A DNA stretch of 34,532 bases from Anaerolineales bacterium (GTDB lineage: Bacteria > Chloroflexota > Anaerolineae > Anaerolineales > DRKV01), in NCBI GenBank assembly GCA_024763355.1, contig JANTFR010000008.1, positions 1 through 34,532 on the forward strand. Reading direction: 5' to 3'. The notes below the pieces were generated by a model, which worked only from the letters and a program-made list of their open reading frames with translations, was not told where the DNA came from and did no database searches. Positions 1 through 4,572 of this stretch are shown here, piece by piece. Positions within the stretch are counted from its first letter, which is position 1. Each line of letters begins with the position of its first letter. The position numbers and the translations under genes were made by a program.

Positions 1-23
1 GCGAGGGTTGGGTAGTTCATCGG

Positions 24-55
24 TTGGCCGAAATTGAACATGAGTGCGGTATAAT
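24..55 (+). promoter_or_regulatory. Candidate glmS promoter
   Basis: A perfect TATAAT lies at 50-55, with a poor -35 candidate TTGGCC at 24-29 (20-bp spacer). Transcription would start near 62, giving about 28 nt of RNA before the ribozyme cleavage site at 90/91. The -10 is convincing and the -35 is weak. Confidence 0.5.
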
Positions 56-90
56 CACGCCTGCTCAATGCAGAGCACCAGGGAAAGCAA

Positions 91-333
91 GCGCATGGGC
101 CGGGGCGACACGCTCCGGTTGACGAGGATGAGGGTTCCTCCCCGCGATGGGAGGCTAACTTCGGGGAGGCGGTATCCCCGAAGGAAAATCGAAAGGTCAG
201 CGGAAGCCCTCCGGGGGCGCCACCCCCCGACACTTTCCCTCCCACCCCAAAGGGAGTTTGCCCCTTTGGGGTCTTGAACGCAGGGGCCAAATCCCGCCGG
301 CAACCGCGGGGACAAATCCCCTGACGAGTGGCA
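91..333 (+). ncRNA. glmS self-cleaving ribozyme / GlcN6P riboswitch with two insertions
   Basis: The leader of glmS matches the glmS ribozyme core in order and register. The predicted cleavage is between A90 and G91 (A|GCGCATG). P1 pairs 98-106 with 112-120. It is followed at once by G121-ACGAGG, where G121 corresponds to the catalytic guanine. P2 pairs 130-134 (GAGGG) with 207-211 (CCCTC), enclosing ATCGA (188-192) and GCGG (200-203). P3 pairs 212-217 with 224-229. Its loop GCCAC (219-223) can form the P3.1 pseudoknot with GTGGC at 328-332. P4 pairs CAGGGG (281-286) with CCCCTG (318-323), with a distal helix 293-297/306-310. The family senses glucosamine-6-phosphate, the product of GlmS, and cleavage lowers the mRNA. 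Unusual points are a 50-nt insert (137-186) with hairpins 137-142/149-154 and 160-166/176-182; a hairpin 245-254/262-271 between P3 and P4; and A95 where the known core usually has C. The family is best known from Firmicutes. Confidence 0.87.
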
Positions 334-345
334 CAACCCGTCTCG

Positions 346-362
346 CCGCGCGTCCCGCGCGG
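346..362 (+). other. GC hairpin between ribozyme and glmS start
   Basis: CCGCGCG (346-352) pairs perfectly with CGCGCGG (356-362) across a 3-nt loop. It lies just after the ribozyme 3' end and before the glmS Shine-Dalgarno GGAGGG (386-391). There is no T-run, so it is probably not a terminator. It may insulate the ribozyme fold or protect the cleaved mRNA. Confidence 0.45.
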
Positions 363-398
363 GGAGCGGCATCCTGTTCTCAATCGGAGGGAAGTTCC

Positions 399-2240
399 AT
401 GTGTGGTATCGTCGGATACATCGGGCCGCGCGACGCGACCCCCATCATCTTGCAAGGTCTCAAACGCCTGGAGTACCGCGGCTACGATTCGGCAGGCGTG
501 GCCGTGCTCCAGAACGGACACATCGAAGTGCGGCGGGATGCGGGGAAACTCTCCCGCCTGACGAAACTTGTCGAAGAAAAACCCCTTTCAGGGCATATCG
601 GTATCGGGCACACCCGCTGGGCCACCCACGGAGAGCCAAACGCCCGCAACGCCCACCCCCACATCGGGATGACCGGTGAAGTGGTGGTGGTGCACAACGG
701 CATCGTGGAAAACTTTCTCGAACTGCGCGAGGAACTGGCCGCCGAGGGGGCCGAATTCCATTCCGATACGGATACCGAGACGATTGTCCATCTCGTCGAG
801 CGGTTGATGGGCGCCCAGCAGGGCCTGGAACAGGCCGCCATGCAGACTTTCCACCGCCTGAAGGGGCATCAGAGCGTAGTGCTGCTCTCCTCCCGCGAGC
901 CGGACAAAATCGTGGCCGCCCGCCTGGGGAACGCCGGCGGCGTGGTGATTGGCTTCGGCGAAGACGAGATGTTCGTGGCCTCCGACCTGCCCGCCATTCT
1001 GGAGCACACCCGCGAGGTGGTCTTCCTGGAAAACGGGGAGATGGCAATCGTGACCCGGGAGGGAGTGCGCTTGCAAACACTGGACGGCGCCCCCATCGAA
1101 CGCGCCCCCCAGACGGTCCCCTGGGACCCCGTCGCTGCCGAAAAGGGCGAATACCGCCACTTCATGCAGAAGGAAATTCACGAGCAGGTACGCTCCTTGA
1201 CGGATACTATCGCCGGGCGGGTGGATTTTGAAGCCGGACGCGTCTACCTGCCGCAACTCAATCTGACTCCCGAACTGGCGCGGCGCATCAAACGCATCGT
1301 GATTACGGCCTGCGGCACGGCCTACCACGCCGGGCTGGTGGGCAAGTATCTCATCGAACACATCGCCCGCCTGCCCGTGGAAGTGGACGTGGCCTCCGAA
1401 TTGCGCTATCGCGACCCCATCATTGACGAGGACACCGTCCTGCTGGCAATTTCACAATCCGGCGAGACGGCGGACACGCTGGCAGCCATGGCCGAGGGGC
1501 GGACACGCGGGGCGACGCTGTGGGCCGTCGTCAACGTGATTGGTTCGCAGGCCATGCGCGTCGCTGACGGCTACATTTCCATGCAGACCGGGCCGGAAAT
1601 AGGGGTGGCGTCCACCAAGGCTTACACCGCTCCCCTGGTAGACCTTTACATGCTGGCAATCCTGCTGGCCGATTTGCGCGGCATTTTGGACGAGCAGGAA
1701 CGCCGTCGGTTGGTCGCGGCGCTGCGGCTGGTGCCGGACCTGGCCGGGCAGGCCCTTGAACGCGAACCGGAGGTGGAGGCCGCGGCCCGCTCCCTGCTGG
1801 AGACCAAACACTGCCTGTACCTGGGGCGCGGCATCAATATGCCCACCGCTTACGAAGGGGCGCTCAAACTCAAAGAAATCTCCTACATCCACGCCGAGGG
1901 CTACCCTGCCGGCGAGATGAAGCACGGCCCCATCGCCTTGATTGACCGCGACATGCCCGTAGTGGTAATCGCCACCCAGGACAGGTGGTATGAGAAAATG
2001 CTCAGTCAGATTGAACAGGTCAAATCGCGGGGAGGGCCGGTGGTCGCCGTCGCAACCGAAGGCGACGAGATGATTGCTTCCCTGGCCGACCACGTGCTCT
2101 GGGTTCCCGAAACGCCGTGGATGCTCAGCCCGGTGGTCAACGTCATCCCGCTTCAAATGCTGGCCTACCACATCGCCGCCCTTCTCGGCCTGGACGTAGA
2201 CCAGCCGCGCAACCTGGCGAAGAGTGTGACGGTCGAATAG
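399..2240 (+). CDS. glmS: Glutamine--fructose-6-phosphate aminotransferase (isomerizing)
   Basis: GlmS makes glucosamine-6-phosphate from fructose-6-phosphate and glutamine in the cytosol, the entry step to UDP-GlcNAc and cell-wall synthesis. The 613-residue product has the usual family length. The start at 399 gives MCGIVGYIG, exposing the N-terminal nucleophile cysteine of the class II glutamine amidotransferase domain (about 1-240). HTRWATHG (71-78) is the glutamine-binding region. Two SIS isomerase domains follow, with SQSGET in the first, and the typical LAKSVTVE tail ends the protein. GGAGGG at 386-391 gives a good ribosome-binding site 7 nt before this ATG. The open frame extends upstream to 258, but that start would lie inside the ribozyme and bury the catalytic cysteine. 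Expression is probably feedback-controlled by the upstream ribozyme. ligA follows after 154 bp containing repeats. Confidence 0.97.
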   Translation: MCGIVGYIGPRDATPIILQGLKRLEYRGYDSAGVAVLQNGHIEVRRDAGKLSRLTKLVEEKPLSGHIGIGHTRWATHGEPNARNAHPHIGMTGEVVVVHNGIVENFLELREELAAEGAEFHSDTDTETIVHLVERLMGAQQGLEQAAMQTFHRLKGHQSVVLLSSREPDKIVAARLGNAGGVVIGFGEDEMFVASDLPAILEHTREVVFLENGEMAIVTREGVRLQTLDGAPIERAPQTVPWDPVAAEKGEYRHFMQKEIHEQVRSLTDTIAGRVDFEAGRVYLPQLNLTPELARRIKRIVITACGTAYHAGLVGKYLIEHIARLPVEVDVASELRYRDPIIDEDTVLLAISQSGETADTLAAMAEGRTRGATLWAVVNVIGSQAMRVADGYISMQTGPEIGVASTKAYTAPLVDLYMLAILLADLRGILDEQERRRLVAALRLVPDLAGQALEREPEVEAAARSLLETKHCLYLGRGINMPTAYEGALKLKEISYIHAEGYPAGEMKHGPIALIDRDMPVVVIATQDRWYEKMLSQIEQVKSRGGPVVAVATEGDEMIASLADHVLWVPETPWMLSPVVNVIPLQMLAYHIAALLGLDVDQPRNLAKSVTVE

Positions 2241-2302: not shown

Positions 2303-4572
<2,270 letters not shown>

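Follow-up and report, generated by a model that had tools for sequence, protein, structure and literature searches.

Introduction

According to published descriptions, ribozymes of the glmS class sense GlcN6P for the control of glmS and exert their effect by cleavage and mRNA decay (PMC9971707; PMC11602151), and the glutamine-II riboswitch regulates the cyanobacterial glutamine synthase (PMC9971707). Within the glmS ribozyme, P2.1 and the C2-G56 residues are tied to the active site and the cofactor pocket, and mutants imply that shifted bulges are tolerated, with covariation of positions 4, 5, 6 and 53 as a prediction (PMC7125110). Here we compare with these systems the leader of glmS in an Anaerolineales genome (assembly of 2.76 Mb in 285 contigs), using a window of 34,532 nt, by which we mean the whole stretch of DNA that was analysed. 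The glmS-class RNA itself is of an already known kind, and a preliminary description of this DNA had recognised it; absent from that description were a helix P0 (80-87/233-240), an anti-Shine-Dalgarno sequence (234-242/386-394) and a glnA-linked copy.

Results

A glmS-class ribozyme lies immediately upstream of glmS

Positions 89-332 of the window form a glmS-class ribozyme immediately 5' of glmS. That such a ribozyme occurs in a Chloroflexota genome, as first described, is supported by both an RF00234 match and the downstream protein, in which GATase and SIS domains were detected.

399-2240, + strand: glmS, glutamine--fructose-6-phosphate transaminase of 613 aa, ATG at 399 (TIGR01135, 790 bits; cut-off 418)

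RF00234 scores 36.1 bits on the window (E 6.2e-7; 8.3e-7 for the leader genome-wide) against a gathering score of 37, and its full-length alignment covers 79-267, with the P4 domain (281-323) returned as a separate partial match to model positions 113-155 (17.1 bits). The score is far past chance, though nominally under the cut-off, and an Rfam scan of the window at the gathering threshold listed no family. The preliminary description had named RF00234 as a search that could overturn the assignment: the leader does fall 0.9 bit under the threshold, but a custom Anaerolineales covariance model scores it at 101.5 bits, with the window among its training sequences, and relatives of the same build exceed the RF00234 cut-off, reaching up to 60 bits (G184; 49.9 in G255 and 49.3 in G248). 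We therefore argue that the miss is a false negative, and because same-build relatives pass, the low score probably reflects the 50-nt double hairpin in J2/2.1 and the altered periphery. The same score is what would speak for a decayed or catalytically silent glmS look-alike, a reading that we regard as very improbable, given that throughout the order the A/G cleavage site and the core are maintained, and that the glnA-type copies described below keep A/G even when the search leaves it free.

The core had been placed in exact register, and the RF00234 alignment together with reading of the sequence bears out its coordinates and helices almost base for base. Its parts, and a further hairpin, are as follows.

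90-91, + strand: predicted cleavage site A/G, from the RF00234 alignment; identical residues in aligned relatives
92-97, + strand: P2.2 5' strand CGCAUG, A95 probably bulged; pairs with 198-202
98-120, + strand: P1 hairpin (98-105/113-120, two terminal G-U pairs); two-sided changes at 8/8 pairs in the fitted alignment A5
121-127, + strand: GACGAGG active-site strand, of which CGA (123-125) forms P2.1; ACGAGG invariant in alignment A3
130-134, + strand: P2 5' strand GAGGG, pairs with 207-211; two-sided changes at 5/5 pairs
189-191, + strand: P2.1 3' strand UCG, pairs with 123-125; conserved A[U]CG after the insertion
198-202, + strand: P2.2 3' strand CAGCG, from the RF00234 alignment
207-211, + strand: P2 3' strand CCCUC, covariation with the P2 5' strand
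213-228, + strand: P3 (213-217/224-228), L3 at 219-223 (GCCAC), from the RF00234 alignment
244-272, + strand: hairpin of 10-11 bp between the P0 3' strand and P4, read from the sequence
281-323, + strand: P4/P4.1 domain, partial RF00234 match of 17.1 bits
328-332, + strand: P3.1 3' strand GUGGC, pairs with 219-223 (5/5 pairs), read from the sequence

Specifically, the A/G site continues into GCG (A90 G91 C92 G93), the ACGAGG strand (122-127) is present together with the P2.1 pseudoknot CGA/UCG, and G124 is what we take to be the general base expected in the glmS family. P3, P3.1 and the P4 domain with its inner loop and P4.1 are likewise present, at the location 5' of glmS. P1 ends in two G-U pairs just before G121-ACGAGG and the P3.1 pseudoknot is complete, both as originally proposed. 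The extra hairpin between P3 and P4 also stands at 244-272; none was seen in the relatives inspected, and it is absent from the same-family locus L202.

P2.2 natural variants resemble one helix with a moving bulge

In the window, the P2.2 pseudoknot is present as C92-G202, G93-C201, C94-G200, U96-A199 and G97-C198, with A95 as a probable bulge and no C5-G53 pair. The preliminary description had noted A95 in place of a usual C and a matching change at A199. The joint change holds in 77/77 glmS leaders, which carry C/G (19) or A/A (58) at positions 5/53 and no mixed combination (0), whereas A95-A199 as a Watson-Crick pair was rejected, since A-A does not qualify. It is likely from the sequences that A95 is bulged and U96 pairs with A199, a shifted-bulge reading that fits 70 of the 77 leaders; the other seven combine A5 with a C or an A at position 6. 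The glnA-type copies (n=74) have R4, C5, U6 and A53, with C5 and U6 required by the search pattern, and one glnA leader (L243, GCGGGAG) departs from the scheme. Taken together, the P2.2 states appear to fit a single helix whose bulge moves, CGCC[N]G, CGC[A]UG and CG[R]CUG against CGGCG or CAGCG, though not strictly. Positions 4, 5, 6 and 53 thus co-vary in natural sequences, matching the prediction made from in vitro data (PMC7125110).

The double hairpin in J2/2.1 is shared across the clade

The leader contains a double-hairpin insertion in J2/2.1, as first described, and both hairpins covary.

137-154, + strand: inserted hairpin A, 6 bp, GCGA tetraloop region; two-sided changes at 7/7 model pairs in the glmS-type and glnA-type sets
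159-183, + strand: inserted hairpin B, 9 bp; two-sided changes at 3/3 modelled pairs

Of 201 Anaerolineales genomes with a completeness of at least 90%, 176 carry the form, many of them in two copies, according to a core covariance model that was built from 20 relatives, window included, and contains the insertion. Leaders of two further Chloroflexota families, f62 and f26, have the same double hairpin, which also occurs in genomes whose leaders pass the Rfam cut-off; most other Chloroflexota RF00234 matches span about 150-175 nt, too short to hold it. Among 43 aligned leaders, most of them but not all with the insertion, 97.2% of cells are paired, compared with 67.6% when shuffled and a clear loss when slid, in an alignment fitted to the tested structure and hence favouring it. 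What is conserved in the insertion helices is the pairing; the sequence of the stems and the length of hairpin B differ among leaders.

These observations fit a clade-level peripheral module of probably structural role, not an oddity of the window. The preliminary description had listed the insertion as a departure that could alter ligand control or supply a second sensor; neither a ribozyme set apart by its insertion nor a second sensor in 137-186 is supported. A second sensing element that alters ligand control could be imagined from the insertion strand, which adjoins P2.1 near the cofactor pocket, from the conservation of both inserted stems by covariation, and from the frequent GNRA loop in hairpin A. 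However, hairpin B differs in both length and sequence between leaders and in some f2-family genomes contains repeat-like palindromes, the module is the same in kind before glmS and glnA and common to most of an order, and no conserved unpaired pocket was seen apart from the UAAC and GAAAA joints. Since the double hairpin is present and covarying across Anaerolineales and related families, a sensor specific to the window is unlikely, and we hold out little prospect for the second-sensor reading as a whole.

Repeat-like palindromes lie within hairpin B in several f2-family genomes. In the window itself, ligA apparently carries an in-frame insertion of repeat-like palindromes at 2878-3100 (CCCTCACCCC..GGGGAGAGGGG), and six glmS leaders have motifs resembling these in hairpin B.

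A helix P0 spans the cleavage site

RF00234 treats the stretch 5' of the cleavage site as unpaired. In the window, this stretch is complementary to a segment of J3/4, and the two are predicted to form a helix, P0, across the cleavage site.

80-87, + strand: P0 5' strand AGGGAAAG, 5' of the cleavage site; 8 bp with 233-240, duplex -10.4 kcal/mol
233-240, + strand: P0 3' strand CUUUCCCU in J3/4, pairs with 80-87

A MAFFT alignment of whole leaders misregistered P0/P3 and P2; we therefore derived the core model from a clean subset, and judged P0 by whether strands from one leader pair better than strands taken from different genomes. In 77 glmS leaders and in 75 glnA leaders alike, 0 of 1000 permutations paired as well as the leaders' own strands, in a test that ignores relatedness. 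The helix takes different sequences in relatives, such as GGGAAAG/CUUUCCC, GGAGAAA/UUUCUCC, GGGAGAGA/UCUCUCCC and GGGAUGU/ACAUCCC.

About 16 of the 77 glmS leaders are short and keep P0, the P4 domain being absent where inspected. Short glmS leaders (ATG at +154 to +240) with the core, the insertion and mostly P0 are those of L046, L048, L049, L054, L056, L060, L061 and L208, and others of the same kind are L213, L215, L219, L227, L230, L232, L246 and L247; the closely read members of this set lack the P3.1/P4 domain. Locus L202, from the window's own family and its nearest relative with a glmS leader, has the double hairpin and lacks P0 and anti-SD, and no clear P0 was seen in the f26/f62 leaders inspected.

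An anti-Shine-Dalgarno sequence overlaps the P0 3' strand

The same segment of J3/4 is also complementary to the Shine-Dalgarno (SD) sequence of glmS.

234-242, + strand: anti-SD UUUCCCUCC, overlapping the P0 3' strand; 9-bp match to 386-394, -14.1 kcal/mol
386-394, + strand: glmS SD GGAGGGAAG, complementary to 234-242

This match was equalled by 0 of 221 control SD regions, taken from ORFs in the analysed loci, and by 0.3% of the 299 in a second control set. Additionally, the base next to CCUCC changes in step with the one next to GGAGG across relatives (A-U 35, A-C 8, G-C 5, G-U 0; Fisher p 7.5e-4; two-position permutation 0/20000, both tests ignoring relatedness). In the window, the SD/anti-SD helix draws on the P0 3' strand, which makes the two helices mutually exclusive; in most f2-family relatives the overlap is only 2-3 nt, which implies weak competition there. 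Whether or not the 5' fragment is included, pseudoknot-free thermodynamic folding gives the SD/anti-SD helix a probability of about 0.66-0.70, whereas P0 receives only 0.06; nearest-neighbour folding of this kind does not reproduce the proposed release of P0, as nothing changes when the 5' fragment is removed. No intrinsic terminator or sigma-70 promoter was detected in window 1-420.

A second copy precedes glnA

The same genome holds a second RF00234 match of 30.9 bits (contig C93:9281-9495 of G000; 1282-1496 of locus L034), 315 nt 5' of the start of glutamine synthetase (glnA), with an intrinsic terminator between the RNA and glnA. RF00234 is the sole significant Rfam match of this leader, the next having E 0.77 or worse. 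The product of glutamine synthetase is the substrate of GlmS.

A pattern for the glnA-type core matched in 67 of 400 Anaerolineales genomes, with 3 matches for the reversed-pattern control, and a slightly stricter pattern found 77 places in 84,980 genomes; each of these places is in a genome whose title gives Chloroflexota/Anaerolineales or that belongs to the order. Of 78 glnA-type leaders, 68 lie before glnA, the gene following in most cases at +240 to +410 and in five only after other genes. In family f2 the RNA opens an Ada-like/EamA operon that has glnA farther downstream. In a few cases the gene after the RNA is glutamate-synthase-like (PF01645), has a MOSC domain or encodes a small peptide. 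The copies have a distinct P2.2 core, an invariant A/G site and often an intrinsic terminator. A search that does not require A/G returned the same places plus one overlapping internal match, which argues that the cleavage site is conserved in them. At the 3' end of many leaders, though not all, stands GGAAGGG and after it a hairpin with a U-run. The GGAAGGG element is the complement of CCCUUCC in J3/4, and the two sequences change to match each other in L184 (CCCUUCU/AGAAGGG) and in L131/L177.

In L150, L178, L181, L126 and L115, the RNA lies directly or one to two genes before a protein that in L178 has a weak glutamate-synthase domain match, and two of the five start with a MOSC-domain gene. 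In L139 (1102-1239), L188 (5974-6105) and L166 (5053-5226), it stands before tiny proteins that share a motif of about DxETIEILxADKxATGG and have no Pfam match. In L197 and L130, glnA and glmS are adjacent, each with its own ribozyme, of different core types.

Discussion

Taken together, comparison among relatives supports a leader with an intact core (A/G site, ACGAGG, P2.1, P2.2, P3.1, P4), a P0 helix, an anti-SD and an insertion that we read as structural. The best explanation of positions 80-394, which we consider probable, is a GlcN6P-activated glmS-class ribozyme in an Anaerolineales form, with a proposed P0/anti-SD control and a glnA attenuation. When GlcN6P is plentiful, the RNA would cut itself between A90 and G91 and glmS would be turned off, as in Bacillus, through mRNA decay; in addition, once the 5' fragment is gone, the P0 3' strand would be free to pair with the SD at 386-394 and block translation. 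Cleavage, ligand and the P0/anti-SD switch of the glmS leader are what we infer from sequence. In the glnA-linked RNA, the same cleavage core may act with a J3/4 that opposes GGAAGGG ahead of the intrinsic terminator, giving transcription attenuation of glutamine synthetase. As P2.1 and the C2-G56 residues are retained in these copies, GlcN6P would be their likeliest ligand.

It is also possible, if on the whole not what we expect, that this is an ordinary glmS ribozyme in which the hairpins, P0 and the J3/4 complementarity stabilise folding, and cleavage and mRNA decay act alone as in Bacillus. The core is complete, peripheral helices are known to differ among sub-families with the stabilising role retained (PMC11602151), and some glmS leaders have P0 without the P4 domain or anti-SD, so that P0 may replace the P4 clamp. 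However, the anti-SD flanking bases covary with the SD, which a pure scaffold does not need, and the glnA-linked relatives have a dedicated terminator with the GGAAGGG element.

For the glnA-linked branch, we find it rather unlikely that the copies are a new class of riboswitch that arose from the glmS ribozyme, in which a rearranged P2.2 (R4 bulged) and terminator control of glutamine synthetase and glutamate-synthase-like genes would go with self-cleavage and with sensing perhaps a nitrogen metabolite, in place of GlcN6P or alongside it. The branch could be more than a glmS-ribozyme variant if its ligand differs.

On the proposed P0/anti-SD and attenuation reading, one clade would use a helix across the cleavage site to join a cleavage core to expression platforms of the conventional kind (anti-SD, terminator), with glnA as a second gene. 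If true, this would be a natural example of a ribozyme becoming a switch, and the glmS regulon would reach nitrogen assimilation; the question of ligand specificity would be directly testable, and cultured hosts exist (Bellilinea, Levilinea, Longilinea, Thermanaerothrix). In the literature searched, outside which the 2011 glmS survey lies, no report was found of the double hairpin in Chloroflexota glmS RNA, of P0, of an anti-SD in glmS ribozyme leaders or of a glnA-linked glmS ribozyme.

Comparison with known systems

The window shares with the glmS ribozyme of RF00234 (Bacillus subtilis, B. anthracis, T. tengcongensis) the cleavage site, ACGAGG, P1, P2, P2.1, P2.2, P3, P3.1, P4 and the place before glmS. 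Unlike it, the window adds two hairpins in J2/2.1, a predicted P0 across the cleavage site and an anti-SD in J3/4, and has A5/A53 in P2.2 with a bulge that is probably shifted. The f26/f62 glmS ribozymes of Chloroflexota (L029, L033, L301-L304, L307) come closer, with the same double hairpin, the (C/G)UAA joint and A5/A53 where parsed, and differ in that no clear P0 is seen. The glnA-linked copies resemble the glutamine-I and glutamine-II riboswitches as RNA control of nitrogen assimilation genes, whereas their core is glmS-like and their only significant Rfam match is RF00234.
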